From positions 1 through 32,628 of the forward strand of contig JACREZ010000043.1 in NCBI GenBank assembly GCA_016212665.1: 32,628 bases of DNA, given 5' to 3'. The position numbers and the translations under genes were made by a program. Origin of the DNA: Ignavibacteriota bacterium (GTDB taxonomy: Bacteria; Bacteroidota; Ignavibacteria; UBA10030; SZUA-254). The notes below the pieces were generated by a model, which was not told the DNA's origin, made no database searches, and saw only the letters and a list, made by a program, of their open reading frames with translations. Below, piece after piece: positions 6,596 through 30,552 of this stretch (position 1 is the stretch's first letter; each line of letters opens with the position of its first letter).

Positions 6596-6599
6596 TTTC

Positions 6600-10553: not shown

Positions 10554-11933
<1,380 letters not shown>

Positions 11934-12114: not shown

Positions 12115-13527
12115 CTACGGGAAAATCCCCATCTCTAAATACGACTTCGCAATCTTATCAATCGAACTGATGAATGCCGCTGTTCTCATACTCACACCCT
12201 TGTGCTGTTTCCATCGCTCACGGATTTCGTTGTACGCGCCTATCATTGTGTCTTCAAGACCTGAGTTCACGAGCGCTTCTTCATCGGGACCCTGAATAAT
12301 TCGCTCACGTTCTGAAGGAGTGAATGATTCACCTGTGAGTTTTTCAATGACAGAAACAAGTTGACCGTACGAACTTTCCGTGTAGCGTTTTGCCATTCTT
12401 CCCATGCGAACATGCTGAAGATTTTTCAACCATTCAAAATACGAAACTGTGACGCCGCCTGCGTTACAATACATGTCAGGAATGACGAGAATTCCTTTTG
12501 CCACCAAAATCTCTTCTGCGTCCGAACTCGTCGGTCCGTTTGCGCCTTCGCCGATTATCCTTGCTTTGATCCGGTCTGCATTTTCTGCTGTGATTTGTTT
12601 TTCGAGCGCGGCAGGAATAAGGATATCGCAATCAAGTTCAAGCGCTTCCTTCGAATGCGGAATATTTGTCGCTCCGGGGAAACTGAGAATTGAGCGTGTG
12701 TTTTTTCGATGCTTCATCACCGCTTCAACATCCAATCCTTTCGGATTGTAAATCGCTCCTTCATACTCAGACAATCCGACAATAATACCGCCACCTTCCT
12801 GAATAAACTTTGCCGCATGATAACCGACGTTCCCAAGTCCCTGAACAACGACTCGCTTTCCTTCCAATCCGGGAGTGAGTCCGAATTTCTTCATATCTTC
12901 TTTATTGTTACATGCTTCACGGACTGCGAAGAACACACCGCGACCTGTTGCTTCACGTCGCCCGCGAATGCCACCTTGGCTGATTGGTTTTCCTGTTACG
13001 CAGGCGGCAGCATCAATCTGTCCGGGATTCAACGCCCCGTAGGTGTCAGCCATCCATGCCATCTCACGCTCGCCCGTTCCGTAATCAGGAGCGGGAACAT
13101 CAATGCCGGGTCCGATAAAATTTTTCTTCACAAGTTCCGCCGTATAACGACGCGTAATTCTTTGGAGTTGTGAGACAGAATATTCTTTGGGATTGATTTT
13201 GATTCCACCTTTCGCTCCACCAAACGGAACATCAACAACCGCGCACTTGTACGTCATCAACGCGGCGAGAGCCATTACTTCGTCCTCATTCACGTCTTCA
13301 TTGTAACGGATGCCCCCTTTCGTCGGCGACTTGTGCTGACTGTGTTCCACACGCCACGCGGAAATGACCTGATAGCCTTCATCCGTCTCAACAGGAAACT
13401 TAAAATGATAGACACTGTTACATACTTTGATCTGCTCTAACAGACCTTTCGGGTAATCGAGATACTGTGCCGCGTTATCAAAATTGCGGACAACATCTCC
13501 AAAAAAACTGGTTTCGTTCATTGACAT
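12115..13527 (-). CDS. Glu/Leu/Phe/Val family dehydrogenase (copy 3)
   Basis: This is a 470-residue member of the glutamate dehydrogenase family, distinct from the other two copies. The catalytic core is intact: [18 protein letters not shown] with the catalytic lysine, and [16 protein letters not shown]. The Rossmann fold shows [11 protein letters not shown] and then LSEYEG; an acidic residue after the second strand often goes with NAD, so a catabolic NAD-linked role is plausible but inferred. The ATG at 13527 was chosen; an upstream GTG at 13575 would add an unlikely hydrophobic extension, and 13521 is a second ATG two codons on. No strong ribosome site is seen. It sits just upstream of gdhA on the same strand, with a heptad array between them. 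Confidence 0.92.
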
Positions 13528-13741
13528 AAATTGTGATTTAAAAATAAATGGTGAGAAAAAAGGTAAGGCATCCACCGGACGGCGGATGAGGTCAAAAAAG
13601 TTGTCGTCATTCAGGCAATGCCTTTGGGTGATTGACCATAAACGCCCTGAAAATCGTCAATTTGTATGCCAGATGCAAATTCAACTTTAGATTTGATAGA
13701 GACTGTATGTTTTTGCATCTATCTCAGGACTGAGAAGAAAG

Positions 13742-13937
13742 AGGATTTAGGTTTTCATGAGTGAAAGATGAAAATGTGGGTGGTGAGTGGGCGATTGGTG
13801 AGTAGTGAGTTGTGATTCGTAAGAACGGAAACAGAAGTAGAACGATTCTCTATTCAATAATCATCGAATCACTACTCACTCTACGAGTCGTAGACCATTT
13901 AACCAATTAACAAGTTAACCGTTTTACCAATCATTAC
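13742..13937. repeat. Long fold-back 7-bp-period array
   Basis: About 28 heptads in near-constant phase (GTGA at 13798, 13805 and 13812; 13783 is one base out of phase). A clear inverted pair is 13804-13819 versus 13865-13880, 15 of 16 bases matching with a 45-bp spacer. It runs into the stop codon of the T9SS-sorted gene (13934). The central words resemble those of the 20210-20356 array. The rest of the gap (13528-13741) shows no gene or other element. Confidence 0.7.
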
Positions 13938-15367
13938 TTCACCAGCATCATCGTCTTCGTATCCTGAAAGTGTTTTCCATTTGATATACTCAGCACATTG
14001 ATTCGGTAGAAATATAAGCCTGTCGGAAGCAAGCTAGCATCGAAATCAATTGCGTGTTGACCTTCTTCCATCTCCCGTTTGTGTAGTTCAGTTGCAACTT
14101 CTTGTCCGAGAATGTTGAACATCTGAAGCGTTACCGTTGCGGGAGAAGGCAAGTCAAAACGAATTGTTGTAACAGGGTTAAACGGATTCGGATAATTTTG
14201 GTGGAGAAAAAATTCCTTCGGAACAGATTCAACTCTCAGGAAATATTTTTTATCTTCATTAATTGAAATTGTAAGCGAACGATTTTGTTCGAGTTTGTGA
14301 AAGGCTACCATCTTTTTTCCTTCACGTTCAACAAGAGAATATTTTACCTCATCCTGATGTTTCAAACTCATCGTTACAGTTATCGGCAAATTGTTTGTCT
14401 GAAATCGAACCGGAAGTTCGACAGGTTCCTGTATTCGTGATGGAAGTATCTCTACCAATCTGTTCGACGCAAAACGAATGTCGAACGCTCCGACCGGAGG
14501 AACAGGCGGCAATTCGAATTTCTCCAAATTCATTTTTTCTCCCGTTTCAAAACCAAACTGTAAAACCTGTTGTTTTCCTCTGCTCGAAGATGCATCATCA
14601 TTTACCGTGAACGAAATTGTGTTCAGGGCTTCTTCAACCATTTCCTCCCGATGGGCTGGAAGTTGTTGCGATGTAAATGAATTGGGTGGTGGTGCGACAT
14701 CTTTTAAAATGATGGAACCTACTCCTTTTGCTTTCACCCAGTATGCTTTTCCCGGTTCGATGATATTGGTTGCAAAATATCCGGAGTTGTATCCGAAATA
14801 ATTAGTTGATATAAGATTCTCCGGAACCTGGATAATGTTCGCGGTATCAACCGGTATTGAAGTAGCGCCAATCATATTCCAATTATCGGCAAGTTCGAGT
14901 GTGTCACTGTTTCTGGGACCGCCTTGTAACGGTAATGCCTGATTTCCCGGAAACTTCAACCAATATCCTACGCCATGCTTGAGTGTATCCTGTTGCTGAT
15001 AACCGCCTTGGTACGAGAATGCGCTTGATGAAGATGTCGGGAAAATAAATGACTTGGAATAATTTGGTACAACAAACGGAACGGAAACCATATTCCATCC
15101 ATCATTATAGAACATGAGAGGAATCGGGGGTTGTCCTCCGCCGCCATCACCATTCCAAAAACCAACACCTTGCCGGAATTGAGAGGATGCACTGGTGCCG
15201 GAGATGGGTTGACCGACAGAAACATTCATTTGAAATTGAGAAGACTTGGAAAAACCACTCGACGCACCTATCATGGCTTTTGACTGTCTTATCAATTGTG
15301 CTTGCAACGTATCAGCTGTTAATAAAGCACAAAGTATTAATATGAGAATCAAGGTTGTTGCTTTCAT
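13934..15367 (-). CDS. Exported protein with type IX secretion sorting domain
   Basis: This 477-residue protein has a signal peptide (MKATTLILILI... to about residue 23, ending LQAQ) and a C-terminal T9SS type A sorting domain in the last 90 residues: HQNYPNPFNPVTTIRFDLP, then FNILGQEV, then LPTGLYFYR, ending in KTMMLVK. In known systems this domain directs secretion across the outer membrane and is then cleaved. Two repeated modules in the middle contain DGWNMVSVP and DNWNMIG, each leading to a GYWLK or AYWVK motif, a pattern common in secreted FCB proteins. No catalytic motif was seen. The start at 15367 was preferred (AGG seven bases upstream); 15397 is possible. Last gene of the secretion operon. 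Role: secreted or surface protein of unknown activity. Confidence 0.85.
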   Translation of the reverse strand: MKATTLILILILCALLTADTLQAQLIRQSKAMIGASSGFSKSSQFQMNVSVGQPISGTSASSQFRQGVGFWNGDGGGGQPPIPLMFYNDGWNMVSVPFVVPNYSKSFIFPTSSSSAFSYQGGYQQQDTLKHGVGYWLKFPGNQALPLQGGPRNSDTLELADNWNMIGATSIPVDTANIIQVPENLISTNYFGYNSGYFATNIIEPGKAYWVKAKGVGSIILKDVAPPPNSFTSQQLPAHREEMVEEALNTISFTVNDDASSSRGKQQVLQFGFETGEKMNLEKFELPPVPPVGAFDIRFASNRLVEILPSRIQEPVELPVRFQTNNLPITVTMSLKHQDEVKYSLVEREGKKMVAFHKLEQNRSLTISINEDKKYFLRVESVPKEFFLHQNYPNPFNPVTTIRFDLPSPATVTLQMFNILGQEVATELHKREMEEGQHAIDFDASLLPTGLYFYRINVLSISNGKHFQDTKTMMLVK

Positions 15368-15417
15368 CGCTTTACCTATATTTGTATTATTGTTCATAGC
15401 AATTGATAACTGAATAT

Positions 15418-16665
15418 TTATTTGCCGACGATGATTGTTCCGGGTCCCGAATATGTTCTCATCTTATTGAGGATGAGTGTTTTTTCAGGATAGTTTCCCG
15501 GATATAAAAAAATGTAATCACCCGACGATGTGTATGTTTGAGCGCTGGTAATTGTTGGAAACGGTAAACTACAATCTCCGGTATATATTGTTCTCATTGT
15601 ATCGTAGTCTGTATAAAAAATTCCTTTCCCGTTGCATGATTCAGACACGACTGTAGGTTGAGTACAAGAAAAAGATGAAGCTACCATTTTCGACTCCTCG
15701 TATGTAATACAACTTATTGTACTTGATTGGTAAGCCCCCTCCTTCATCATTGCTACATCACTAATATTATTCCACTCGTTATAATCATCAATCATTCGTT
15801 TGTCCGCCCCTGTTTGATTACACCAACCATAATCATTATCTGTATTATTACTTAAATCTCTCTGAACACCCGTAGCGCCTATAACACCCGAACAATTCCA
15901 GTCCACAGATACAAACCCCATCCCGAAATCCTCGTCTAAATTATCTTCATCAATACTACAAATTCGACCATGTGAATAATCAATGTTCTTATACGGGTGT
16001 GTTTCCATTCTTGCTAATCCAAGACATTCTAAAATATTTTTTACACCCATAACTTGATACCGATAACTCATGACACTACCCAAAGTCAGTAAATATGAAC
16101 CGACATTCGACTCATTCATTGAACCAGAATGTTTAAGTCCCAAATTATGTCCTAATTCATGCGCGAACGTTGCAGCCCTCTCAAAGCCTGAACCAATATT
16201 ACCGCCCCATGAACCGAGCGTAACGACTAAATCATTACCCGGTCGTTCCGCTAATCCTGAGGAACTTGTCGCTGTGTAGGTTTCATCTTCATAATCATGT
16301 CCAAAAAGACAATAATGCCAACCGTTTCCATGGTTAGCGTTAGCATCTTTGAAATTTTTGAACCCATTCGTTCCATCATAACCAAAGAAATTATTCGCGT
16401 TCCCCGGGTCACGTCTAAGAGTGTTCGTATGTCCTACATTGTTACTAATATCAACGTTTAATGTAATTCCCTGACAAGCGAACATTTGGATAACAGCATC
16501 AATCTCGCTTTGTGAGGGACGATGTGAATGTACACCATCATCCATCCAATCAATTTCTACATTGATTTCTGTCGGAACTTTTTGTTGCTGACCAAACAAA
16601 AATTGTGTTGCAACAGCCATCACCAAGAGTAATTTGGTCAACTTCGAGATAGAGAATTTGTTCAT
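15418..16665 (-). CDS. Secreted zinc metalloprotease (metzincin)
   Basis: This 415-residue protein carries a signal peptide (core LLLVMAVATQFLF) and the extended zinc motif HELGHNLGLKH at 169-179, with three zinc-binding histidines and catalytic E170. The Met-turn SVMSY follows at about 197-201. Together these define a metzincin endopeptidase. The last about 60 residues form a separate module beginning RTIY and ending in TIIVGK. The protease encoded next door ends in a similar module, although its catalytic domain belongs to another family. There is no typical T9SS sorting domain at the C-terminus. It lies 41 bp downstream of that protease gene and 20-50 bp upstream of the T9SS protein, in one operon. 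Likely role: degrade extracellular protein; substrate unknown. Confidence 0.85.
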   Translation of the reverse strand: MNKFSISKLTKLLLVMAVATQFLFGQQQKVPTEINVEIDWMDDGVHSHRPSQSEIDAVIQMFACQGITLNVDISNNVGHTNTLRRDPGNANNFFGYDGTNGFKNFKDANANHGNGWHYCLFGHDYEDETYTATSSSGLAERPGNDLVVTLGSWGGNIGSGFERAATFAHELGHNLGLKHSGSMNESNVGSYLLTLGSVMSYRYQVMGVKNILECLGLARMETHPYKNIDYSHGRICSIDEDNLDEDFGMGFVSVDWNCSGVIGATGVQRDLSNNTDNDYGWCNQTGADKRMIDDYNEWNNISDVAMMKEGAYQSSTISCITYEESKMVASSFSCTQPTVVSESCNGKGIFYTDYDTMRTIYTGDCSLPFPTITSAQTYTSSGDYIFLYPGNYPEKTLILNKMRTYSGPGTIIVGK

Positions 16666-16705: not shown

Positions 16706-17803
16706 TTATTTACCAATAATAACATTGGAGGACGTTGTATTCCATTTCCTCAACTTCAAACTTTTGCTGATTGTAATCGCACCGGCATAATTTCCGGAAT
16801 TTACAATCAAATAATTCCCTGATGATACATCCGTGATACCTTCTGAAAGTGTGTCGTACGGTTTTTCCGGTGTTCCGTTTTCTAATCCGGAAGAAGAGCC
16901 ATCCACATAGATCGTTCTTGTATAGAGATTGGTTCTATCCGATGTCAATGTATTTAACGCACGCTCGCGTTGTCCTGAAGTGAAATCCGTTCTGCAATCC
17001 TTCGGTGCATACGACATCATATTGTTCACTTGAGGAGAATATGGGGTGGCATCACACTCGGCAGGCGGCGACGCAGAGTTATCATAGGTGCAGGTTGCGG
17101 TATCAACTCTACCGGATTGTCCCGGGTCGGCTGGGGTGTCACAGACTAAATCACCACGCGATCCGCAATGGCTTCCATCCGGACACTCAATTCCAACAGC
17201 ATCTTCATGCGTATGGTATAAATCAAAGTGGTGCCCAACTTCATGCGGAGTTGAAGAAGGATTCGTTGCACAAGAACTATCAATCAATATTCCTTGAAAT
17301 GTACTGAAGGTAAACGCGCTACTCCCGCATTTATTAGTCAGATTAGTGAAGTATAGGTTTACTGTGTTCGATACGAAATTCACATCTCGCAGTTCATCCT
17401 CTAATTCTTCACTATCCGGAACCGTGTGAAAATAGTCACTATTGATATAATCAATACTTCCATGCTGAAAAAAAATCATATCCATCTCCTCAAACTCGGA
17501 ATTTAAAATCTGCATAGCGAGATTTACGTCGGAGACCGACATCCCGCCTGTGCCATCCGAAAACCTTACGACATGGATACTTACCGGGATATGATATGGA
17601 TAAGAAACCATCGAAAAAAATGACGGCAACGTATTGCTGGCAATACGTTGCAATTCCCTTTCAATCTGTGCTTTCGGAATTGGAGTTCTACATTCTTCCC
17701 ATTGACTTAATGCAGAAACCGGCATAAAAGATTGTGTTCCAAATCCTATCAAACAAAGGAACATAATTTTTAACAGATTCTTTGTAGCAATTTTGCAATT
17801 CAT
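16706..17803 (-). CDS. Secreted M43-type (pappalysin-like) metalloprotease
   Basis: This 365-residue protein has a signal-like hydrophobic start and the zinc motif HEVGHHFDLYH at 187-197, giving His187, Glu188, His191 and His197. CDTPADPG follows at about 221, then NNMMSYAPKDCRTDFTSGQ, which combines the Met-turn with the Cys-Phe-Thr-Gln pattern of the M43B/pappalysin family. These enzymes cleave extracellular proteins. The C-terminal 70 residues (RTIYVDG to VIIGK) resemble the first turns of a parallel beta-helix and match the tail of the following protease. The ATG at 17803 was chosen over a TTG at 17821. It starts 23 bp after the YadA-head-like gene and is surely in the same operon. Substrate unknown. 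Confidence 0.85.
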   Translation of the reverse strand: MNCKIATKNLLKIMFLCLIGFGTQSFMPVSALSQWEECRTPIPKAQIERELQRIASNTLPSFFSMVSYPYHIPVSIHVVRFSDGTGGMSVSDVNLAMQILNSEFEEMDMIFFQHGSIDYINSDYFHTVPDSEELEDELRDVNFVSNTVNLYFTNLTNKCGSSAFTFSTFQGILIDSSCATNPSSTPHEVGHHFDLYHTHEDAVGIECPDGSHCGSRGDLVCDTPADPGQSGRVDTATCTYDNSASPPAECDATPYSPQVNNMMSYAPKDCRTDFTSGQRERALNTLTSDRTNLYTRTIYVDGSSSGLENGTPEKPYDTLSEGITDVSSGNYLIVNSGNYAGAITISKSLKLRKWNTTSSNVIIGK

Positions 17804-17826
17804 AAAGTTTTCTTTCTGCAAAATTA

Positions 17827-20070
17827 CTATTGCAAATTCACCAGAACCAGAACTAATCCCCTGCCTTCTTTTAGTGAAGACATAGCTTTACCAATAATTG
17901 CTCCATGAGATTCCTCTTTATTAATCGCCTTCATGGCATATCCCGGCACATCAGATGTTGTAAGCAAGTCTCCTGGAGCTATCGGAGAAGTGCTTGCGTC
18001 AACATAACAATACACTCGCCCGCTCATCGCAACATTACGACCGTTCACAAATACTTCGCGTTGATTTAAAGTAATTCCCGGTTTGACTCCGCCCGCTCCG
18101 CTGATAACTCCCGCTACTTTAGTATCATAAGACTTGTCACTAAGTTTGAGGTTGCCTGAATGTATTTCATCAATTGAAACTACCATACCTGCTTCCACAA
18201 TCTCTGAACCGGTGATTTCAAATGGTTCTGCAAGATCTGAGCCACCTGTAATTTCCAAAACTTGTGTGGTCACGCGACTCTCACCCGTTCCGTTATAATC
18301 CGCATCAATGTCTATAGTCTTAGTCCCTGTACTATTATACATTTCCAAAACTGCACCCTGGGTCCCTTCCTGAGCATCAAACACAAAGGTCGTAGTTCCA
18401 TCTTCTCTTTTCATTTCTATTTGTGCACCGCCGGAACTTGAACCTTCCTGAGCAGTGAGAATGATGGTTTGTGTTGCATCGCTTTCTGCCAATGCAATTC
18501 TTCCCCCCAAATCATTGTAATTTGCATCAAGGTCAATCGTTTTATGTGTTGCACCATCATACATCTTAATGAGCGCGCCGCCGTCTGCTACACTCTCTTC
18601 TGCCATAATTGTAATAGATGTATTTCCTGTTTTCTCCCGAAGTTTCAACTGAGCGCCTGTTGAACCGTCTTCTGCAAGAATCTGCACAGCGCTGATTCCA
18701 TCCGAATTATAAATGTCGGTGGTACCGTCGCTTGCAATTTTGAATAATTGATTATTCTCAAGACTATCATCTTTACTCAGGACAAATTCATTGTTTGTAT
18801 CATCTAAGCCGAGACTCCATTTCGTTTGGTCTGTCACCAAAACATCTTTTCCAATGTTGAAAATAATTGTCGCGTCGGCATCTACATTTAATCCGGCTGC
18901 TTCTAATTCAAGCGTGGCTGAATTTCCCGCAGTGTTCGTACTGTTTTCTATATGCAATTCACTTTCAGGAGAACCCGTGTTTATCCCTACGCCGTTTGCT
19001 GCATTGATAAGAAATTGCAGAGAATCAGAAGAACTAAAACTACTCGTGCTGCTATTCCAGACAAAACTGCCATCATCTTCTGCTTTTGCATATCTTCCCG
19101 CTGCAAACGAGGAATTACCTGATGCAATATTTGCATGACCTCCTGCAACCGCAGAGTATGTTCCGGAGGCTGAATTTGAATCTGATAGCGATGCACCACC
19201 GCCGCCAAGCACAGACGAATAATTTCCTCTTGCATTATTATACCTGCCACCACCAACAAACGAACTCGTTCCCGTCGCTTCATTGAATCCTCCACCTGCA
19301 ACTACCGATTGATTGACAGTAGCATCATTTCCTTCACCGCCTCCAACCGTTGATTTATTTCCAGAGGCGGTATTTCCATCACCGCCGGCAACCGTTGCTT
19401 GTACTCCGCTTGCTGTATTTGTCCAACCACCGCCGATTGTTGATTGAGCGCCACTTGCAACGTTCATGTATCCGCCTGCAATGGTGGATGAATTTCCTGT
19501 TGCGTCATTGTATTGCCCACCTCCAACAACTGATGAACCGCTTGCTTCGTTTCCTTTCCCTCCCCCGATAGTGGCAAAACTACCTGTGGTCGAATTTGAA
19601 TCTCCTGCAGTTGCGCCGCCACCACCGCTGATAACGGAGAACGCTCCTCGCGCTCTGTTGTTACTACCCCCTGCGATTGATGCAGTTCCGGTTGCTTCGC
19701 TATTCGGACCTAACAGAAACAATGAATTCATTGCATATGGCGCATCGGTAAGTCGTATTCTTGGAGCAAGCGTTGAACTACCGACCTGCGTTTCCATCCA
19801 GAGTTGTTGGTTAAAACTTACCGTTGAAACATCAAGATTGACTGAATAAGCCCCCTTATTTACCGGAACACCCGGAATAGTCTGTGTAAACATCAACGTC
19901 CCCGCAGTTGTATCCGTGTACAAATTGAATGTCATATTGAAAATACCATTCAAAGGCACACCTGCCGTATCCGTGAGGAATCCCTGCTGATTCAACTTTG
20001 TGGGCAACTGTGCCTGCACCGCAGAAAGAGAGAGAAAAAGTAAAAAAGTAAAAATGAACAATTGTTTCAT
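17827..20070 (-). CDS. YadA-head-like repeat surface protein
   Basis: This 747-residue protein has a clear signal peptide (to about residue 20, ...VQAQ). Residues about 25-115 form a domain often found first in such FCB proteins (QGFLTDTAGVPLNG... LTDAPYAMNS). Residues about 128-330 hold about 13 repeats of roughly 15 residues with the pattern SxxxGGGxxNxASG, the left-handed roll repeat of trimeric autotransporter adhesin heads. A repetitive linker follows, then a C-terminal domain with GDLLTTSDVPGYAMKA and GAIIGKA, ending in LVLVNLQ. The YadA beta-barrel anchor is absent, so export and attachment differ from classic autotransporters. The start has AGGAG 8 bases upstream. It leads the operon with two proteases and a T9SS protein. 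Likely a surface structural or adhesive protein. Confidence 0.82.
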   Translation of the reverse strand: MKQLFIFTFLLFLSLSAVQAQLPTKLNQQGFLTDTAGVPLNGIFNMTFNLYTDTTAGTLMFTQTIPGVPVNKGAYSVNLDVSTVSFNQQLWMETQVGSSTLAPRIRLTDAPYAMNSLFLLGPNSEATGTASIAGGSNNRARGAFSVISGGGGATAGDSNSTTGSFATIGGGKGNEASGSSVVGGGQYNDATGNSSTIAGGYMNVASGAQSTIGGGWTNTASGVQATVAGGDGNTASGNKSTVGGGEGNDATVNQSVVAGGGFNEATGTSSFVGGGRYNNARGNYSSVLGGGGASLSDSNSASGTYSAVAGGHANIASGNSSFAAGRYAKAEDDGSFVWNSSTSSFSSSDSLQFLINAANGVGINTGSPESELHIENSTNTAGNSATLELEAAGLNVDADATIIFNIGKDVLVTDQTKWSLGLDDTNNEFVLSKDDSLENNQLFKIASDGTTDIYNSDGISAVQILAEDGSTGAQLKLREKTGNTSITIMAEESVADGGALIKMYDGATHKTIDLDANYNDLGGRIALAESDATQTIILTAQEGSSSGGAQIEMKREDGTTTFVFDAQEGTQGAVLEMYNSTGTKTIDIDADYNGTGESRVTTQVLEITGGSDLAEPFEITGSEIVEAGMVVSIDEIHSGNLKLSDKSYDTKVAGVISGAGGVKPGITLNQREVFVNGRNVAMSGRVYCYVDASTSPIAPGDLLTTSDVPGYAMKAINKEESHGAIIGKAMSSLKEGRGLVLVLVNLQ

Positions 20071-20133: not shown

Positions 20134-20199
20134 TAAAGATAGGAACTGCTTGAGTTTAAATCAATAGAACAAATGTTCTATTTTTTGAAAATAGAACAT
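20134..20199 (-). promoter_or_regulatory. Promoter and candidate response-regulator operator of the surface/protease operon
   Basis: Minus-strand promoter: TTG (20162-20164), 20 bp, TATCTTTA (20134-20141). The palindrome AATAGAACA-AA-TGTTCTATT (20163-20182) overlaps the TTG by two bases. A third half-site, AATAGAACA (20190-20198), lies next to it and forms a second inverted pair of 12-base arms (20173-20184 with 20188-20199). Heptamers separated by two bases (TAGAACA-N2-TGTTCTA) match the 7-2-7 geometry known for NarL-type regulators, and a NarL-type gene is adjacent. Confidence 0.65.
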
Positions 20200-20209
20200 T
20201 GGAATGTTT

Positions 20210-20356
20210 GTGAATAGTGAGTGGTTAATTGGTGAGTAGTGATTCGTGAGTCATGATTCGTGAATAGTGAACTGTGAAGACGAAAACAAAAAGGAACGAT
20301 TCACTAATTAACTAATCACGATTTACGAAGTAACGAATCTCCAAGTAACCATTTAA
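20210..20356. repeat. Fold-back 7-bp-period array
   Basis: GTGA recurs at 20232, 20239, 20246, 20260, 20267 and 20274 in exact 7-bp phase (two earlier copies at 20210 and 20217 are one base off). The right half carries the reverse-complement words (CTAA at 20304 and 20311; ACGA at 20318 and 20325). The array runs into the stop codon of the response regulator gene. The central words resemble the 13742-13937 array. Confidence 0.7.
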
Positions 20357-20994
20357 GCAGAAAGAAGATTCTCCTTCAACGCCTTTGCCACCGCCTGAGA
20401 TTTTGAATGAACATGGAGTTTATCATAGATGTTTCGCGTGTGAGCGCGGACTGTGTAGTTGCTGAGAAATAATTTGTCCGCGATAGTTTTATAATCGTCT
20501 CCCTGCACAAGATGCTCAAGCACTTTCAGTTCGCGTTTCGTGAGCGAGTAATTCACATGCTTTGTCGGTAAATTCTCTTTAAACATTTGAAGAACTTTAC
20601 TTGCAATATGAGGCGAGATGGGCGTACCTCCGTCGAACGCATCCTCCACCGCCTCAACTAATTTTTCCGCGTTGACATTTTTGGAAACATACCCGCTTGC
20701 ACCAGCGCATATTGCCTGAAAAACTTTTTCGTCATCATCATACACGGTGAGCATGATGATTTGAACATACGGATATTCCCGCTTCAATCGTGCCGCGGCT
20801 TCAATTCCGGAAATTCCCGGAAGTCCGATGTCCATCAATACAACATCGGGAGAAACTTCATCGAAATTTTCAATTAATGGTTCAGCCTGTTCATACTCAC
20901 CGACAACCTGAAATTTTCGGGAGTTTGTGAGCATCATGGATGTTCCTAACCTGTAGTCGGGATTATCTTCTACTATTGCAACGGAAATTGACAT
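20353..20994 (-). CDS. NarL/FixJ-type response regulator
   Basis: This 213-residue protein has a receiver domain (residues 1-120; acidic pair E9/D10, phospho-acceptor D55 in MDIGLPG) and a LuxR-type helix-turn-helix at about 148-205 (LTKRELKVLEHL, then SNYTVRAHTRNIYDKL). It should bind DNA as a dimer when phosphorylated. Its partner is the histidine kinase gene directly upstream on the same strand (stop at 21073, 79 bases away). Its own promoter carries the palindrome also found at the surface-protein operon, so autoregulation is likely. The start at 20994 (MSISVAIVEDN) gives the normal receiver beginning. Confidence 0.95.
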   Translation of the reverse strand: MSISVAIVEDNPDYRLGTSMMLTNSRKFQVVGEYEQAEPLIENFDEVSPDVVLMDIGLPGISGIEAAARLKREYPYVQIIMLTVYDDDEKVFQAICAGASGYVSKNVNAEKLVEAVEDAFDGGTPISPHIASKVLQMFKENLPTKHVNYSLTKRELKVLEHLVQGDDYKTIADKLFLSNYTVRAHTRNIYDKLHVHSKSQAVAKALKENLLSA

Positions 20995-21023
20995 TAAACT
21001 TTGTGTGTGTGGAAAATGATGTG

Positions 21024-21072
21024 GTAAGATATTTCATCCTTGCTTGGGAAACAATAGAACAAATGTTCTATT
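21024..21072 (-). promoter_or_regulatory. Promoter and candidate operator of the response regulator gene
   Basis: Minus strand: TTG (21052-21054), 20 bp, TATCTTAC (21024-21031). The palindrome AATAGAACA-AA-TGTTCTATT (21053-21072) overlaps the TTG by two bases, exactly as at 20134-20199. The palindrome ends next to the kinase stop codon. Confidence 0.6.
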
Positions 21073-24000
21073 TTATGTTCTCGCGGTAATTATTATGGTC
21101 GTTCCCTTCCCTTTTTCAGAGACGATATCGAAAGAACCATTCAGATTGTTCGCTCGCATGAGCATATTAGCAAGTCCTTTCCCCCGGAATGTTCGTTTCG
21201 GGTCGAACCCTGCGCCATTATCCCTTATTCTTATGGTTATCAACCCAGCATCATAAGTCGCCTGCAAAGTAATCTGCGTGCAGTTGGCGTGCTTAACGGT
21301 ATTGTTTACTGCTTCTTTGATCATCAACCAAAATTCTTTTCGTACCTCGGATGATAAAAACACGGTTGCGATTTCTTCCTTTGGAGGAATCTCAAAGACC
21401 AACTCGATATTCCTTGCATGGCAAGTGAACTGAATTAAATCCCGAAACCTGAGAAGCAACGTGTGAAGTTTATCCGGCTTCGGGTCAATCGTCCAAATAA
21501 TTTCGCGGATGGAATTGACCGACTCTCTCGAAAGGGAAACAATGCGTTCATGCAAATTCGATTTCGTTTGCTCATCGAGTGATTCTGATTTCTGAAGCAA
21601 CTCCCCGAACATTGCAATGCTACTAAGGTTCGTTGCAAGTTCATCATGTAAATCGGAAGCGAGCCGCACGCGCAAGTGTTCGATTTTATGAATCTGTCCG
21701 AGACGGTAACGATACATCAGATACAATATCGAAACAATGAAAAGAATGACAAGAAGAGCAAACCACCACATTTGCCAAAACGGAGGATTGATAATCACCT
21801 TCACTGAAGTGCCACGTTCATTCCACACACCATCATTGTTTGAACCGCGTACACGGAACACATACGTTCCCGCATCGAGATTTGTGTACGTTACATAGCG
21901 CCGGGTTCCTGCATCAATCCAAAATTCATCGAAGCCTTCCATCATGTATTGAAATTGATTTGTGATTGGGTCGGTAAAATCCAAAGCGACAAATTCAAAC
22001 GAGAAAAAATAATCTGTGTGAGATAACTCGACTGTCGCTTCCCTACCCGGGCTCCATCCTTCTTCTAATTTATCAAGCCGACGAAACGAAGTGACAACAA
22101 CCGAGGGAATATTCTGATTATCTTTTATACGATTCGGAAAAAATCTGTTGAAACCGTTCGGACCGCCGAAGAACAATTCCCCTGACGATGAACGATAATA
22201 CGCATTCGCATTGAACTCGTATCCCTGCAGTCCGTCATAAATATCAAAATTCCTGAATCGCTTTTTCAGGAGAGTGCGGTCTTCCTGCACAGTAAGATTG
22301 GAAATGATGAATCTTGAAATTCCCCTGTTCGTACTAAGCCAGAGATTCCCGTCATCATCCGGAAGTATTCCATAAATGAAATCGTTCGGTAAACCATCGG
22401 CTTCCGTGTAATGGTTGAATTGTTGAGTCGTCGGGTCGAAACGGTTCAATCCGGCTCCCGTTCCGAGCCAAAGAATTCCTTTCGCATCTTCATAGATTGA
22501 CGTGACAATATTGTTGCTGAGACTGTTTGAATCACTCGGATTGTGTTGAAAGCGCGTAAATGTTCCATTCGCCCGATTCATCTTGTTCAGTCCCCCGCCA
22601 ATAGTTCCAATCCAGAACGAACCCGATTTGTCTTCATAAATAAATCCGATGACATCATTACTTATACTTGTACTATCTGCCGGATTATTTCTGTAGGTCT
22701 TGAATTTCAATTCTGTTTTCCTGATGTCTCCATCGAACGGCAACATCTTTATCAAACCGCCACCATCCGCTCCGAACCATATCGTCCCCGCTTTATCTTC
22801 ATAACTGACGATGATTTGATTTGAACTTAATCCGTTCGCCTTTGATTGAACTTCCTGAATCCGGCGAAACGATTTGCTCTGTTCATCAAACAGATTCAAA
22901 CCGCCGCCGCGTGTACCAACCCAGATATTTCCTTTCCTATCCTGACACATCGTCACCGCAACATCAAAACTTAAACTCCGGGAATTTCTTTCATCATGTT
23001 TGTAGATTGTCTCTAACTCTCCATCAGCAGAAAAAACACTCACTCCTCCTTCCGTTCCCACCCAAAGATTTTTCTTGTCATCTTCAAGAAAACACCAGAC
23101 AGAATTATGACTCAGACTTTTCGGATTCATCGGGTCGCGAAGAATATGTCCGAACCGTTCGCTTCTTCTGTTATATTTGTTCACTCCGCCGTTCAACGCT
23201 CCCAACCAGATTACTCCCGACTTATCCTCAAACACGGAAAGTATTTGATTCGCACTCAACGCTCCCGGTTTATCGGGGGTATGCCCGACAAATGTAAATT
23301 TCTCTTTCCTCGTATCGAAAATATTTACTCCTTGGTCGGTGCCAAGCCACAACATTCCATTCCTGTCCTTGCACATTGACCAGACTCTGTTGCCCTTCAA
23401 CGTATTCTGTGTTTCTCCCTGATTCGAAAACCGTGTAAACACTTTTGATGAAGGGACATATTTCACAAGCCCGCCCGATGTAGTACCTAGCCAGAGAATT
23501 CTCTCAGTTCCGGAATGTTCTTCCACAATCGAGTACACCATATTATCTCCCGGCTGTTCTGTTGGAATTCCAAGATTCATGAACGCCGTACGCTCTTTGT
23601 TAAGCATGTACAATCCTTTCGATGTTCCCAGCCACAACACCTCGTTGTCGTCCTCATACATTGCCATTACAGAATATTCGGTTGACTTGAACGATTCCAT
23701 ATTAAATGAAGTGACAAGATTTGTTTGAATATCGAGTTTGTGCAATCCTCCGTTCTTCGTTCCAATCCACAACAATCCCTCTCTATCTTGATGAATCGCC
23801 ATGATGTCGCCTGATAACAGGCTTGATTTTTTTGTCGCATTGGGGAGAAATCGGGTGAAGGATTGAGTTGCTCTTTTGTATTTATTCAATCCGGTCAGTG
23901 TTCCGAACCACAAATTTCCTGAGCGGTCTTCATAAATTCGTCGAACAAAATTATCGGAAATGGAAGTCGAGTCCGCGGGATGTGTTTTGAATGTTGTGAA

Positions 24001-24198
24001 CGTAAATCCGTCGTACCTATTTAATCCGTCCTGTGTTCCAAACCACAGAAATCCCTCGCTGTCTTGAAAAATATTCAGCACGGTATTTTGAGACAATCCG
24101 TCCTCAACCGTCAGATGCTCGAAATGAATATTTTCAAATTGAGCAGACGCGGCAATCACCAAAAAAAAACTTAGAAGAACAAGCGCTTTGATTCTCAT
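21073..24198 (-). CDS. Two-component sensor histidine kinase with propeller periplasmic domain
   Basis: This 1041-residue protein starts with a signal sequence and carries many repeats of the type DxxGxLWxGTxxGLNR (residues about 25-690), which form two seven-bladed propellers in known relatives. A Y_Y_Y-like domain follows (about 720-790), then a membrane helix around 795-815 (FALLVILFIVSILYLMY). In the cytoplasm there is a HisKA_3-type dimerisation domain with phospho-acceptor His851 in SDLHDELATNLSSIA, then an ATPase domain with NNTVKHA at about 965 and DNGAGFD at about 993. The propeller senses an outside ligand, often a glycan or peptide in related systems; the ligand here is unknown. 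It pairs with the response regulator just downstream. A candidate promoter sits only 4 bases before the ATG. Confidence 0.95.
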   Translation of the reverse strand: MRIKALVLLSFFLVIAASAQFENIHFEHLTVEDGLSQNTVLNIFQDSEGFLWFGTQDGLNRYDGFTFTTFKTHPADSTSISDNFVRRIYEDRSGNLWFGTLTGLNKYKRATQSFTRFLPNATKKSSLLSGDIMAIHQDREGLLWIGTKNGGLHKLDIQTNLVTSFNMESFKSTEYSVMAMYEDDNEVLWLGTSKGLYMLNKERTAFMNLGIPTEQPGDNMVYSIVEEHSGTERILWLGTTSGGLVKYVPSSKVFTRFSNQGETQNTLKGNRVWSMCKDRNGMLWLGTDQGVNIFDTRKEKFTFVGHTPDKPGALSANQILSVFEDKSGVIWLGALNGGVNKYNRRSERFGHILRDPMNPKSLSHNSVWCFLEDDKKNLWVGTEGGVSVFSADGELETIYKHDERNSRSLSFDVAVTMCQDRKGNIWVGTRGGGLNLFDEQSKSFRRIQEVQSKANGLSSNQIIVSYEDKAGTIWFGADGGGLIKMLPFDGDIRKTELKFKTYRNNPADSTSISNDVIGFIYEDKSGSFWIGTIGGGLNKMNRANGTFTRFQHNPSDSNSLSNNIVTSIYEDAKGILWLGTGAGLNRFDPTTQQFNHYTEADGLPNDFIYGILPDDDGNLWLSTNRGISRFIISNLTVQEDRTLLKKRFRNFDIYDGLQGYEFNANAYYRSSSGELFFGGPNGFNRFFPNRIKDNQNIPSVVVTSFRRLDKLEEGWSPGREATVELSHTDYFFSFEFVALDFTDPITNQFQYMMEGFDEFWIDAGTRRYVTYTNLDAGTYVFRVRGSNNDGVWNERGTSVKVIINPPFWQMWWFALLVILFIVSILYLMYRYRLGQIHKIEHLRVRLASDLHDELATNLSSIAMFGELLQKSESLDEQTKSNLHERIVSLSRESVNSIREIIWTIDPKPDKLHTLLLRFRDLIQFTCHARNIELVFEIPPKEEIATVFLSSEVRKEFWLMIKEAVNNTVKHANCTQITLQATYDAGLITIRIRDNGAGFDPKRTFRGKGLANMLMRANNLNGSFDIVSEKGKGTTIIITART

Positions 24199-25917: not shown

Positions 25918-26078
25918 AGTCGTGTATAAGGCGAATCTCAACTTTGCCAATCATTTCTTCACATCTGAAAATTCTCTTCTCATCAGCAAAGTTTAAATCT
26001 GTCAATCAATCCAACTTTATTTTGGCATACAATCTGACAATTAAAAATACAGTTATTTGTATTTCTCATTGTCATCGA

Positions 26079-28271
26079 ATGAATACTGTCTCACGAAGGA
26101 AATTTTTAAAGATTGGCGGCGCAACACTTGGGACTGCGCTTGCGGGCGGCGCACTTCTCAAAGGAACTTCACTTCTTTCAAAACAACAATCAACCGAAAC
26201 GCAAACCGTTCCGACATTCTGCGATATGTGTTTCTGGAAGTGCGGCGCAATTGCTCATGTGAAGGATGGAAAACTCTGGAAAGTTGAAGGAAATCCGCTC
26301 GACCCGCTGAGCAACGGGAGATTGTGTCCGAGAGGAACGGGCGGCATTGGCGCACATTACGACCCGGACAGGTTGCGTTCGCCGCTCCTCCGTAAGAACA
26401 ATCGGGGCGAAGAGCAATGGGTGGAAGTGACGTGGGACGAAGCGTTCACCTACATTGCCGACAAGATGCAGAAAATAAAATCGAACTACGGACCGGAATC
26501 GGTTGCGCTGTTCAGTCATGGCATCGGAGGAAATTTCTTCAAGCACACACTCAAAGCGTTCGGCACACCGAATATTTCTGCGCCATCGTTTGCACAATGC
26601 CGGGGACCACGCGATGTCGGCTTCCGTTTGACGTTCGGTGAAGATGTCAGTTCACCGGAACGGACAGACATCAAAAATGCACAATGTCTCGTTCTCATCG
26701 GAAGCCATCTCGGCGAGAACATGCACAACACGCAAGTGCAGGAATTTGCCGAGGCGGTCGAGAAGAACGCAAGCATCATCGTCGTTGACCCGCGGTTCTC
26801 CGTCGCGGCAAGCAAAGCGAAATATTATCTCCCCATCAAACCCGGCACCGACCTCGCGCTTCTTCTCGCGTGGCTCAACGTCATCGTGAATGAAGGTCTC
26901 TATGATAAAGTGTATGTTGAGAAGTACGGATTCGGGTTTGAACAATTCTCCGCGCTCATTCAGGAGTACACGCCGGAATGGGCGTATCCCGAAACAGGAA
27001 TCGAACCGGAACTTATCAGGCAAACGGCGCGTGAAATGGCGCGCTACAAACCGGCAACGCTTGTGCATCCCGGTCGCCACGTTACTTGGTACGGCGATGA
27101 CGCGCAACGAAGCCGTGCAATCGCATTGCTGAACGCGTTGCTCGGAAGTTGGGGACGTAAAGGCGGATTTTACACTCCTGTTAGTATGGATGTTCCGCCG
27201 TATCCTTACCCCGCGTATCCCAAGTCTGAAAAAGGAAAAGTGGACAACCCCGAACACAAGTATCCGTTCGCCCACGAAACAATCACCACAGGAATTCGCG
27301 ACGCGACAATTTCCGGTCAGCCGTATCCTGTAAAAGGTTGGTTTGTGTACGCGACAAATCTTTTGCACGCATTACCGAATGAAGCGGAAACAATCAAGGC
27401 AATTCAGAATCTCGACCTGCTTGTAGTGATTGATGTTATTCCAAGTGAGATTGCCGGATGGGCTGATGTTGTTCTGCCTGAGTCGGTCTATCTCGAACGC
27501 CACGATGATTTGAATGTTGAGTGGTTTCGCGAACCGTTCGTCGGGTTGCGCCAACCGGTTGTTGAATCGCCGCATGAACAAAAACCAAATTGGTGGATGG
27601 CGAAGAAGCTTGCAGAGAAACTCGGACTCGGACAGTATTACCCTTGGAAAACAATCGAAGAATATTTTGAACATCGCCTGAGCGCGGCGGGATTGAGTTA
27701 CGCCGAGTTGAAGAAGAACGGAATCATCCGCGGGGCAAAGCAACCGATTTATTTTGATGAAGGAGTTCCGGCAGAGTTCCCGACACCAAGCGGAAAGATT
27801 GAGTTCTATTCCATGCAACTTGCTGAAGCCGGATTCGACCCGGTTCCGAAATACAAACGACCTTCAGCAGGCGCACCCGGCTCGTTCCGTTTGTTGTTCG
27901 GGCGGGCGCCTGTTCACTCATTCAGCAGAACACAATCGAATCATCTTCTCATGGACATGATGAATGAAAATGAAGTCTGGGTAAATGCAGACATCGCGGC
28001 TCGGTATGGCTTGAAGAGCGGTGAGTATGTCCGATTGAAAAATCAGGATGGCGTGGTGAGCAACCGAATTAAACTCAAAGCGACGGAGCGCATTCGTCCC
28101 GATTGCGTCTATATGGTGCATGGCTTCGGACATAACGCGAAAGGATTGACGTATGCGTTCGGCAAAGGCGCAAGCGATGCGCAGTTGCTGACTCGCTACA
28201 CAACCGACCCGCTCATGGGCGGCACCGGAATGAACGTGAACTTCGTGACCATCGAAACGGAGGGTGCATAA
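26079..28271 (+). CDS. PsrA/PhsA-type molybdopterin oxidoreductase (catalytic subunit)
   Basis: This 730-residue protein has a twin-arginine signal (SRRKFLK at 5-11), so it is exported folded with its cofactor. A [4Fe-4S] cluster site follows: C48, C51, C55 and C83. C174, in FAQCRGPRD, is placed to be the molybdenum ligand, as in the polysulfide/thiosulfate reductase class. The rest covers the two pterin-binding domains and a C-terminal domain (GRAPVHSFSRTQ). Family members reduce polysulfide, thiosulfate or related compounds; arsenate or tetrathionate relatives cannot be fully excluded. The ATG at 26079 was chosen because it begins the twin-arginine signal; the frame is open 45 codons upstream without good starts. 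It heads a six-gene sulfur operon and ends one base before the ferredoxin gene. Confidence 0.9.
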   Translation: MNTVSRRKFLKIGGATLGTALAGGALLKGTSLLSKQQSTETQTVPTFCDMCFWKCGAIAHVKDGKLWKVEGNPLDPLSNGRLCPRGTGGIGAHYDPDRLRSPLLRKNNRGEEQWVEVTWDEAFTYIADKMQKIKSNYGPESVALFSHGIGGNFFKHTLKAFGTPNISAPSFAQCRGPRDVGFRLTFGEDVSSPERTDIKNAQCLVLIGSHLGENMHNTQVQEFAEAVEKNASIIVVDPRFSVAASKAKYYLPIKPGTDLALLLAWLNVIVNEGLYDKVYVEKYGFGFEQFSALIQEYTPEWAYPETGIEPELIRQTAREMARYKPATLVHPGRHVTWYGDDAQRSRAIALLNALLGSWGRKGGFYTPVSMDVPPYPYPAYPKSEKGKVDNPEHKYPFAHETITTGIRDATISGQPYPVKGWFVYATNLLHALPNEAETIKAIQNLDLLVVIDVIPSEIAGWADVVLPESVYLERHDDLNVEWFREPFVGLRQPVVESPHEQKPNWWMAKKLAEKLGLGQYYPWKTIEEYFEHRLSAAGLSYAELKKNGIIRGAKQPIYFDEGVPAEFPTPSGKIEFYSMQLAEAGFDPVPKYKRPSAGAPGSFRLLFGRAPVHSFSRTQSNHLLMDMMNENEVWVNADIAARYGLKSGEYVRLKNQDGVVSNRIKLKATERIRPDCVYMVHGFGHNAKGLTYAFGKGASDAQLLTRYTTDPLMGGTGMNVNFVTIETEGA

Positions 28272-28272
28272 C

Positions 28273-28812
28273 ATGTCACGATACGGAATGGTGATTGATA
28301 CAACGAAATGTGTCGGCTGTAAGGATTGCGTGGTCGCATGTAAAACAGAAAATAATGTTCCCGAAGGATACAACCGCGATTGGATTGTGCAGGATGTGAA
28401 CGGAAAATTTCCCGACCTGACTATGGAGATTCGCTCGGAACGATGCAACCATTGCACGACTGCGCCGTGCGTGAGTTGCTGTCCGACCGGCGCGAGCCAC
28501 ATTCACGAACTTGGCGGCGTGGTGCTGGTAACAAACAATGAGTGCATCGGTTGCAAGGCGTGCATCGCTTCGTGTCCGTACGATGCGCGGTTCATTCATC
28601 CCGACGGATACGCGGATAAATGTACCTTCTGCATCCACCGCGTTGAAAAAGGACTCGACCCTGCATGTGTCTCTGTCTGCCCGACGCATTGCATGACATT
28701 CGGAGATTTGAACGATGCGAACAGTCAGGTAAGTAAGTTACTGAACTCGCGTAAACATCACTCGTTGATGCCGGAAGCGGGAACAGAACCGAACATTTTT
28801 TATTTGATGTAA
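28273..28812 (+). CDS. PsrB/NrfC-type four-cluster [4Fe-4S] ferredoxin subunit
   Basis: This 179-residue protein carries four groups of cysteines of the NrfC/PsrB/DmsB family: CVGCKDCVVAC near the start, CNHCTTAPCVSCC, CIGCKACIASC and CTFCIHRV...CVSVC. It passes electrons from the quinol-oxidising membrane subunit to the molybdoenzyme. It has no signal peptide, as expected for a protein carried out with its twin-arginine partner. The ATG at 28273 lies one base after the previous stop, with GGAGG 9 bases upstream inside the preceding gene. A palindromic element separates it from the membrane subunit gene. Confidence 0.93.
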   Translation: MSRYGMVIDTTKCVGCKDCVVACKTENNVPEGYNRDWIVQDVNGKFPDLTMEIRSERCNHCTTAPCVSCCPTGASHIHELGGVVLVTNNECIGCKACIASCPYDARFIHPDGYADKCTFCIHRVEKGLDPACVSVCPTHCMTFGDLNDANSQVSKLLNSRKHHSLMPEAGTEPNIFYLM

Positions 28813-28818
28813 CCATGT

Positions 28819-28899
28819 TGTCATTCTGAATCCCGCTTCAGCGGGATGAAGAATCTCCATCTGTCACGAACGAGATTCTTCGCTCCGCTCAGAATGACA
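28819..28899. repeat. REP/MITE-like nested palindromic element inside the sulfur operon
   Basis: An 81-bp element with perfect terminal arms TGTCATTCTGA (28819-28829) and TCAGAATGACA (28889-28899), an inner stem GAAGAATCTC (28848-28857) with GAGATTCTTC (28872-28881), and a separate hairpin ATCCCGCT-TC-AGCGGGAT (28830-28847). From memory, very similar sequences are scattered in genomes of many phyla. It lies between the ferredoxin and NrfD genes and contains no gene. Confidence 0.8.
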
Positions 28900-28916
28900 G
28901 AGAGAGAAGAGAAACA

Positions 28917-29861
28917 ATGAACGAACTATCAACAACACGAACGAACCCACTGATTGACCCGTCGCTCCATATTTGGGGCTGGGAAATCCCGGTCTATCTT
29001 TTTCTTGGCGGACTGGTCGCCGGCATTATGATTATCTCCGGCTACTTCATCTTCAAAGGAAAATCGAAACACAGTTATTTTTCCTGCTTCTATCTTCCAC
29101 ACATCAGCCTTCTCCTTCTCAGTGCAGGAATGTTTGCTCTATTCCTTGACCTCGAACATAAACTGTATGTCTGGCGATTATACACCGCGTTCAAAATCAG
29201 TTCGCCGATGTCGTGGGGTTCATGGATTTTGCTCCTCGTGTATCCAACATTGCTCGCCACAACACTCACAAGAATTCCTCCCGCGTTTCAAAATCGAATA
29301 AAAATATTTGATACAATTTCCACCTTCATCAATCAACATCCGACTGCAGTGAAAAACGTCGGCGTGTTGAGCATGATTGTCGGAGCGATTCTCGGAATGT
29401 ACACCGGAGTTCTACTTAGTTCTCTTGGCGCTCGTCCGCTCTGGAACAGTTCAATTCTCTGGGTTCTCTTTCTCACCAGCGGACTCTCATCTGCCGCGGC
29501 GTTCGTTCACATGATTACCGACGACAAGTATGAACGGGAACTTCTTGCAAAAGCAGACAACGGATTTTTAATTTTCGAACTGTTCGTCTTCTCACAATTC
29601 ATCATTGGCTTGCTCAGTTCAACACAAGCACACCAACGCGCTGCATATTTGATTTTGAACGGACCGTATGCGGCGGTGTTTTGGGTGTTCGTCATCGGGC
29701 TGGGAATTGTCGTTCCTCTCATCATTCAACTTCTTGCGGTGAACCATAAAGTTCAACACACACCCGTCGCGCCAATCATGGTGGTTGCAGGTGGATTGAT
29801 TTTGCGATTCGTGATTGTCTCTGCCGGGCAGTTCAGTCATTGGACGATTACAGGACAATAG
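28917..29861 (+). CDS. NrfD/PsrC-family membrane subunit
   Basis: This 314-residue protein has about eight membrane helices and the family start WGWEIPVYLFLGGLVAG, with LDLEHKLYVWRLY in the loop after the third helix. PsrC-like subunits oxidise membrane quinol and feed electrons to the ferredoxin subunit. Together with the two genes before it this gives a complete three-subunit Psr/Phs-type reductase. The ATG at 28917 follows a purine-rich stretch just after the palindromic element, so that element helps set the leader. The stop codon overlaps the first base of a second palindromic element. Confidence 0.92.
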   Translation: MNELSTTRTNPLIDPSLHIWGWEIPVYLFLGGLVAGIMIISGYFIFKGKSKHSYFSCFYLPHISLLLLSAGMFALFLDLEHKLYVWRLYTAFKISSPMSWGSWILLLVYPTLLATTLTRIPPAFQNRIKIFDTISTFINQHPTAVKNVGVLSMIVGAILGMYTGVLLSSLGARPLWNSSILWVLFLTSGLSSAAAFVHMITDDKYERELLAKADNGFLIFELFVFSQFIIGLLSSTQAHQRAAYLILNGPYAAVFWVFVIGLGIVVPLIIQLLAVNHKVQHTPVAPIMVVAGGLILRFVIVSAGQFSHWTITGQ

Positions 29862-29941
29862 TAGAGTCCGTTCAGCGAACGGACGAACTGAACGGATGAA
29901 TTTTTAATAATGCTTTTGTCCGATTACGAATCGGACTCTAC
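29861..29941. repeat. Second palindromic element in the sulfur operon (two hairpins in an outer repeat)
   Basis: Outer arms GTAGAGTCCG (29861-29870) and CGGACTCTAC (29932-29941) are perfect. Inside are two 8-bp hairpins with 3-base loops: GTCCGTTC/GAACGGAC (29866-29884) and GTCCGATT/AATCGGAC (29918-29936). The element begins on the last base of the NrfD stop codon. Paired hairpins of this kind resemble REP doublets. Confidence 0.8.
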
Positions 29942-29970
29942 AGGTCATAAATAATTTGAAAAAGAACAAT

Positions 29971-30552
29971 ATGAAAACTCTAACATTCAATGAACCTCTT
30001 GATGATGTCTCTGAAGAGACAATCGAGAATACTGTAAAATCTGCCGCGCCGTACTGGAATCCATACGTTGCCGGAATCGGACTCGGACTTGTTCTCCTTG
30101 CTTCGTTCGTGATTATGGGACGCGGACTTGGCGCATCGGGCGCGTTCACGTCGTTGGTCTCTGTCGGCGTCAACGCTGTCGCACAGGAACATGCGCGCTC
30201 GAATGGATTCTTCTCGGAATATCTCGGCGATGGCACACACAGCCCGCTCAAAGACTGGCTTGTGTTTGAAGTGCTTGGCGTAATCGTCGGAGGATTTTTC
30301 TCCGGCATCCTTGCGCACCGGGTAAAGGGAACGGTGGAAAAAGGAGAACGCATCTCCACAGGCAAACGATTTCTCTTCGCTTTCCTCGGCGGCGGAATCA
30401 TGGGCTTTGGTGCGAAACTCGCCCGCGGTTGTACAAGCGGACAAGCATTGACGGGCGGCGCTCTGCTCAGTCTCGGAAGTTGGGCATTCATGCTCTCTGT
30501 CTTTGCGGGCGGTTACATGGTTGCATATTTTTTCAGGAGACAATGGCAATGA
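29971..30552 (+). CDS. YeeE/YedE-family sulfur transporter, first half
   Basis: This 193-residue membrane protein has a short cytoplasmic start and about five helices. The family motif GAKLARGCTSGQALTGGA lies at about residues 140-160; in the studied thiosulfate importer TsuA a conserved Cys takes part in binding. Typical TsuA proteins are about 350 residues with two such halves; here the halves are separate genes. The ATG at 29971 is preferred over a TTG at 29956. It overlaps the next gene by 4 bases. Probable cargo is thiosulfate or a similar sulfur anion, judged from the neighbouring sulfur reductase genes. Confidence 0.88.
   Translation: MKTLTFNEPLDDVSEETIENTVKSAAPYWNPYVAGIGLGLVLLASFVIMGRGLGASGAFTSLVSVGVNAVAQEHARSNGFFSEYLGDGTHSPLKDWLVFEVLGVIVGGFFSGILAHRVKGTVEKGERISTGKRFLFAFLGGGIMGFGAKLARGCTSGQALTGGALLSLGSWAFMLSVFAGGYMVAYFFRRQWQ

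Follow-up and report, generated by a model that had tools for sequence, protein, structure and literature searches.

To our knowledge, the binding sites of most response regulators are unknown. In NarL of E. coli, the residues that contact DNA are K188, V189 and K192. NarL sites with a 7-2-7 layout lie at -40 to -49 at napF and at -38 to -47 at yeaR, both NarL-activated, a repressing NarL site at frdA lies near the start, and an engineered NarL site reads TACCCCT-AA-AGGGGTA (PMC4549865). DosR/DevR of M. tuberculosis recognizes the 9-2-9 box TTSGGGACT-WW-AGTCCCSAA and controls a regulon of about 50 genes (PMC2275270), and its base contacts are made by Lys179, Lys182 and Asn183 (PMC4082495). Here we describe a locus of an Ignavibacteriota bacterium in which a NarL-type response regulator and its propeller sensor kinase are accompanied by two copies of a 9-2-9 palindrome, each merged with a promoter. 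The window, by which we mean the whole stretch of DNA analysed (32,628 nucleotides), contains the following features.

13934..15397, minus strand: final gene of the promoter A run; its 487-aa product has a type IX secretion sorting tail
15418..16665, minus strand: metzincin-like metalloprotease (HELGHNLGLKH; Pfam matches weak), promoter A run
16706..17821, minus strand: M43-type metalloprotease (HEVGHHFDLYH), promoter A run
17827..20070, minus strand: 747-aa protein with YadA/UspA1-type head repeats (UspA1, PDB 3pr7, E 9.7e-28), first gene behind promoter A
20136..20141, minus strand: TATCTT box of promoter A (-7/-10-like), 20 bp from the TTG
20162..20164, minus strand: TTG box of promoter A (-33/-35-like), two bases in common with palindrome A
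20163..20182, minus strand: palindrome A, AATAGAACA-TT-TGTTCTATT, proposed operator of the surface-protein/protease operon
20190..20200, plus strand: extra half-site AATAGAACATT upstream of promoter A
20353..20994, minus strand: NarL-type response regulator, 213 aa (Pfam Response_reg 5.1e-26 and GerE 9.6e-19, both above the Pfam cut-off)
21026..21031, minus strand: TATCTT box of promoter B, 20 bp from the TTG
21052..21054, minus strand: TTG box of promoter B, two bases in common with palindrome B
21053..21072, minus strand: palindrome B, immediately following the stop codon of the kinase gene, a proposed operator for autoregulation of the response regulator
21073..24198, minus strand: propeller sensor kinase, 1041 aa (Reg_prop, Y_Y_Y, HisKA_3, HATPase_c)

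By its domain content, the regulator is an ordinary NarL-type response regulator. Its receiver carries the phosphoacceptor D55 and the conserved K105, invariant in 11 of 11 aligned relatives, its recognition helix presents R183, A184 and R187, and it scores 120.6 bits against the NCBIfam NarL equivalog model, under the cut-off of 250. The kinase, whose phospho-histidine likely sits in SDLHDE, combines Reg_prop and Y_Y_Y with a histidine kinase core next to the regulator gene, which is the gene arrangement of a propeller two-component system; palindrome B lies between the two genes, downstream of the kinase and upstream of the regulator. Promoter A precedes a run of four genes on one strand. 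Pfam and NCBIfam gave no match for the 747-aa protein.

The remainder of the window holds other gene groups. Three genes of the glutamate dehydrogenase (ELFV) family lie within about 8 kb on one strand (5348-6637, 10554-11921 and 12115-13575, minus strand). A 991-aa protein (6799-9774, minus strand) has a pyruvate-phosphate-dikinase ATP-binding domain and an N-terminal part that weakly resembles a receiver, slightly below the Pfam cut-off. Genes for a molybdopterin oxidoreductase, an Fe-S protein and NrfD, followed by two Sulf_transp genes and a rhodanese gene (25944-31801, plus strand), look like a polysulfide/thiosulfate module. Repetitive reading frames close to the window end (31935-32249, plus strand; VAWLRESVAQVRVS / ATGVRGTGTGVRG) are probably a tandem repeat.

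On the plus strand, AATAGAACA-AA-TGTTCTATT occurs exactly at 20163-20182 and 21053-21072; in gene direction, both copies read AATAGAACA-TT-TGTTCTATT-G, and the TTG box consists of the last TT of the palindrome and this G. Searching the window with up to three mismatches found these two copies only, and at least two copies occurred in 0 of 100 shuffles. Within the 9-2-9 palindrome, the inner heptamers TAGAACA form a 7-2-7 layout. The extra half-site upstream of promoter A may hold a second dimer or a monomer. A first-pass annotation of this DNA had pointed out the two palindromes, their two-base overlap with the TTG, the 20 bp to TATCTT and the inner 7-2-7, and each of these holds for both copies, the last also fitting a published NarL site (PMC4549865). 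Its proteases are borne out as an M43-type and a metzincin-like enzyme, and its YadA-like surface protein by the UspA1 match of the head. It had further called the proteases secreted; in this operon, secretion is indicated by a sorting tail for the 487-aa protein alone.

We then consider the whole genome (3,909,958 bases in 45 contigs). With up to two arm mismatches, three sites were found, all of them perfect: the two in the window and one at C1:13112-13131. Three arm mismatches gave three more places (on C8, C16 and C28), with the promoter layout in 0 of 3, and the pattern TGTTCTATTG-N19-21-TANNTT returned only the same three sites. All three perfect sites carry G-N20-TANNTT, and the third copy has the same orientation and distances as the others (AATAGAACATTTGTTCTATTG, 20 bases, TACATT). 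Downstream of it come two genes, the first for a protein of 1683 aa and the second for one of 1335 aa; each product has a type IX sorting tail that scores above the NCBIfam cut-off. The predicted regulon of the window regulator thus very probably consists of three promoters: its own, that of the surface-protein/protease run and that of the C1 gene pair.

Related genomes preserve much of this arrangement. In another genome of the genus (G002), a regulator 95% identical to that of the window has both sites beside it. The regulator site, AATAGAACA-TA-TGTTCTATT, keeps perfect arms around a changed centre; the site before the surface-protein gene keeps a perfect promoter-proximal arm, with one change in the distal arm, and the extra half-site is also kept, 6-7 bp from the palindrome. 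Spacers differ between the two genomes' promoters. Regulators of 63-66% identity in G014, G006, G015 and a hold-out locus from another family (L316, genome G074, arms TATAGAACA/AATAGAACA) keep the promoter-proximal half TGTTCTATTG. In other relatives of similar identity, CTATTG is kept and the inner bases differ: with the same TVRAH helix, a paralogue on contig C4 has AATAGCATA/AATAGGCAG, G001 has AATAGTACA and G018 has AATAGTCAG. As for the C1 gene pair, the G001 orthologue of the C1 protein (76% identity) is without the palindrome, and the best regulator match in that genome is 64% identical; since the assembly is 83% complete, a joint loss of palindrome and regulator is only suggestive. G002, whose assembly is 81% complete, has no close orthologue of the C1 protein (best 43%).

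Our main reading, which we hold with a probability of about 0.78, is that the neighbouring NarL-type regulator binds the palindrome and, once phosphorylated by the propeller kinase, activates the three promoters. The phosphorylated regulator would dimerize on the 9-2-9 palindrome, with recognition-helix residues around 183, 184 and 187 reading the arms AATAGAACA. The dimer would sit just upstream of the TTG box and share two bases with it, its axis at about -43.5 when TATCTT is counted as the equivalent of an E. coli -10 element. Activation of its own gene would create a positive loop, and the regulator would also switch on the adjacent surface-protein/protease genes, presumably co-transcribed, and the distant C1 pair for type IX-secreted proteins.

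The direction of control is read from position only. The palindrome overlaps the -33 box at the same place in all three genomic sites, and an operator that abuts or overlaps the -35/-33 element is one feature expected of class II-type activation. The same two shared bases could also serve a repressor: the regulator would bind the palindromes and keep sigma off the TTG, giving negative autoregulation and repression of the secreted proteins until the signal changes, and NarL itself represses at frdA (PMC4549865). However, the -10-like box and the likely start lie outside the palindrome, and the inferred axis falls within the NarL ranges at the activated napF and yeaR (same source), which makes activation the likelier reading; repression is the main rival, and an unlikely one.

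Relatives of the regulator were then examined for sites of their own. The set comprised 99 distinct regulators at least 38% identical to that of the window, drawn from 40 genomes that share its genus, family or order; one further regulator had too little upstream sequence and was left out. A pattern blind to palindromes, TTG-N19-21-TANNTT, was found in the last 130 upstream bases of 37 of the 99 (200 shuffles: mean 3.7, maximum 11). At these anchors, the 9-2-9 register, in which the 9 bases ending in the TT of TTG are paired with the 9 bases beyond a 2-bp centre, reached a mean of 6.20 of 9 pairs, versus 1.95-3.61 in registers with other axes. A combined score of at least 10 was obtained for 28 of 99 regulators (shuffles: mean 0.3, maximum 2), and a score of at least 9 within 130 bases, which defines a called site, for 52 of 99. 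Among a further 80 named loci, score 10 was reached by 9 of 79 (shuffles: mean 0.15, maximum 2). The arms vary between paralogues (AACTACCCG, AATAGATAA, AATGACATA, AATCACACG, AATACCCCA, AATAACGTA and others), one sister palindrome being AACTACCCG-TT-CGGGTAGTT. In this order, about half of the subfamily members thus carry a 9-2-9 palindrome of their own in front of their gene, at this same place and with differing arms. The layout is not shared by GerE regulators at large: among 17 further GerE-type regulators encoded in the window's genome, each less than 38% identical, 2 have the promoter anchor and 1 has a called site.

Two hold-out sets extend these counts. The first was drawn from 81 loci of the same order, reduced by 15 duplicates to 66 regulators, 65 of them with enough upstream sequence, and gave called sites in 27 of 65 (shuffles: 0.34, maximum 2). 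The second, 45 loci from the same class or phylum, gave 7 of 45 (shuffles: mean 0.9, maximum 3). The layout is rarer outside the order, and its extension to the whole phylum is only weakly indicated. Separately, two Flavobacterium-type loci (L213 and L218) have TGTACCCTA-AT-TTAGG(G/T)ACA followed by TATCTTTG before related regulators, a similar layout in other Bacteroidota.

The window's own genome offers further examples. The general pattern AAY-N14-RTTG-N20-TANNTT occurs there at 37 places, versus 20 for a backwards control pattern, and 8 of the 37 have at least five of six inner pairs (0.17 expected). These eight are the three window-type sites, two sites on C34, one site each behind regulators on C9 and C15, and one before a tRNA-Gly gene. 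One C34 site is at a regulator's own promoter, the other before the gene of a 707-aa type IX-secreted protein that adjoins another regulator. The tRNA-Gly site (C45:58954) has no regulator near it in the stretch examined and is probably a chance match. The C4 paralogue (genome G000, locus L042) has its own site, AATAGCATATTCTGCCTATT with 20 bases and few inner pairs, and an identical copy precedes a 1595-aa reading frame elsewhere in the genome, at C16:241584 (L355); together, these copies form a second predicted regulon, small and of the same design. In the broader model set out below, a self-site palindrome would in some cases recur at one or two other promoters, frequently those of large secreted proteins.

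The variety of arms could be compared with the variety of recognition helices. Training used 70 sites (52 from the relatives and 18 from the 79 named loci), in which the two helix residues after T-V/I, R183 and A184 in the window, seemed to be paired with particular bases. The resulting rules were fixed before the hold-out loci were obtained. Both hold-outs, which together provide 34 sites, were drawn by similarity to a single paralogue with Phe (L056), and their regulators are 49-93% identical to a training regulator. Counted in half-sites, Phe184 went with C3 in 12 of 12 (others, 2 of 56), Asn184 with G4 in 11 of 12 (2 of 56), Asp183 with G7 in 4 of 4 (3 of 64) and Ser184 with C4 in 16 of 18 (2 of 50), while Thr184 went with A4 in 16 of 18 (10 of 50) and with C5 in 16 of 18 (4 of 50). 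Twelve hold-outs are less than 60% identical to any training protein, and they gave 2 of 2 for each of Phe to C3, Asn to G4 and Asp to G7, 13 of 14 for Ser to C4, and 3 of 4 for Thr to A4 as well as for Thr to C5.

Part of this association reflects descent. Between pairs with less than 35% N-terminal identity, bases 3-5 agree at 0.34 when residue 184 is the same (135 pairs) versus 0.05 when it differs (594 pairs). In a set thinned to 44 representatives that share less than 55% identity, the strongest signal among the positions scanned came from residue 184 (z 9.2 with base 4 and 8.6 with base 3), and residue 187 was associated with base 6 (z 8.3). The pairing of residue 183 and base 7 reached z 5.0, below residues 168 and 182 at the same base (z 8.1 and 7.8), and residue 152 scored with base 3 (z 5.7); that residues 168, 182 and 152 also score means that shared ancestry contributes. 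On the N-terminal tree, Asp183 arises once, and there are 3 changes for Asn, 5 for Phe, 7 for Ser and 11 for Thr; independent-pair tests on supported branches (1-2 pairs per rule) reached significance for none of the rules whose results were listed, the per-rule tests being without power because there are too few independent changes on those branches. For Ala184, the window's own residue, the representatives gave no clean rule: such regulators have TAG in many cases and TTACCCA-like arms in others. Since inner bases differ behind identical TVRAH helices, the code read here is incomplete. Some palindrome bases appear to be predictable from helix residues.

These comparisons bear on who reads the palindrome. 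GAACATTTGTTC contains GAAC-N4-GTTC, which resembles the Gram-positive SOS box, and another protein such as a LexA-like repressor might read it, its nearness to the regulator being coincidental. We regard this as very improbable: the three perfect sites occur solely at the regulator gene, the neighbouring run and one gene for a secreted protein; a single shared binder would not account for the different palindromes (such as AACTACCCG, AATGACATA and AATCACACG) that occupy this position at sister regulators; and arm sequence tracks the helix residues. A LexA/SOS operator in particular was set aside, as what follows the three perfect copies is the regulator gene, the surface/protease genes and the type IX-secreted protein gene rather than DNA-repair genes. 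A transcript-level element such as a terminator or hairpin after the kinase, or a mobile repeat, would suit palindrome B directly after the stop codon and can be set aside on position and composition, since the arms are AT-rich, the preceding gene ends about 170 bp before palindrome A and about 240 bp before the third copy on C1, and the distance to TTG and TANNTT is fixed at three sites whose spacers and flanks differ.

Binding and activation by the regulator stay the preferred reading. The first-pass annotation had named a NarL-type regulator as the reader of the palindrome, and the third copy, the conservation in G002 and the covariation of bases with residues, hold-outs included, all argue for it. 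It had proposed looking for the motif elsewhere in the genome and at the same promoters in relatives: the former yielded one further perfect copy with the same promoter layout, and in the latter both sites are kept by the 95%-identical orthologue. The random scatter away from promoters that it named as a refutation was not seen, 3 of 3 perfect copies being at promoters.

At the level of the order, we favour, with somewhat less confidence than the main reading, a model of parallel insulated modules. Each regulator would have a private 9-2-9 palindrome fused to its own -33 box, the modules having arisen by duplication and joint change of helix (183, 184 and 187) and operator, and the private palindromes would keep parallel sensor-to-secreted-protein modules apart. 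The self-sites would then amount to a readable NarL-family code from which targets can be predicted in genome sequence. Dozens of similar response regulators can occur in a single genome of this group. If self-sites can be recognized by their fixed place, an operator can be read from sequence and its other targets searched for, as for the third promoter. If true, the model would also let helix and operator be compared pair by pair, making it testable how paralogues diverge in DNA specificity without cross-talk, and would connect one propeller sensor of the window with a surface protein, a pair of metalloproteases and a further two proteins secreted by the type IX route. We found no description of private palindromes merged with the -33 box, with a readable code, in the open-licence literature, and one may still be published; the lineage-wide arrangement and its partly readable code seem to be new.

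Among known systems, a sequence comparison of the window regulator with the PDB gives VraR-type regulators as its best full-length relatives (E 3.6e-33). DosR differs from it in arms and signal. DosR Asn183 would correspond to window residue 184 if chain and residue numbering coincide (alignment ends 3-205 to 2-204), and base 4 of the DosR box is G, in agreement with the Asn rule (PMC2275270). Like the regulator described here, NarL of E. coli combines receiver and GerE domains, and its inverted heptamers with a 2-bp centre match the layout of the window palindrome. The position of the window sites relative to the promoter resembles napF and yeaR, and the engineered NarL site aligns with family members such as AATACCCCA and resembles Thr184 members (PMC4549865). 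Unlike in NarL, the window arms are TAGAACA, the outer AAT/ATT bases are conserved too, the TTG box lies within the palindrome edge, and the three sites found serve the regulator itself and secreted or surface proteins. Finally, the locus shares with propeller (Reg_prop) two-component systems a kinase with Reg_prop, Y_Y_Y and HisKA_3 beside the regulator, but here kinase and regulator are separate proteins rather than a hybrid, with the predicted operator between their genes.
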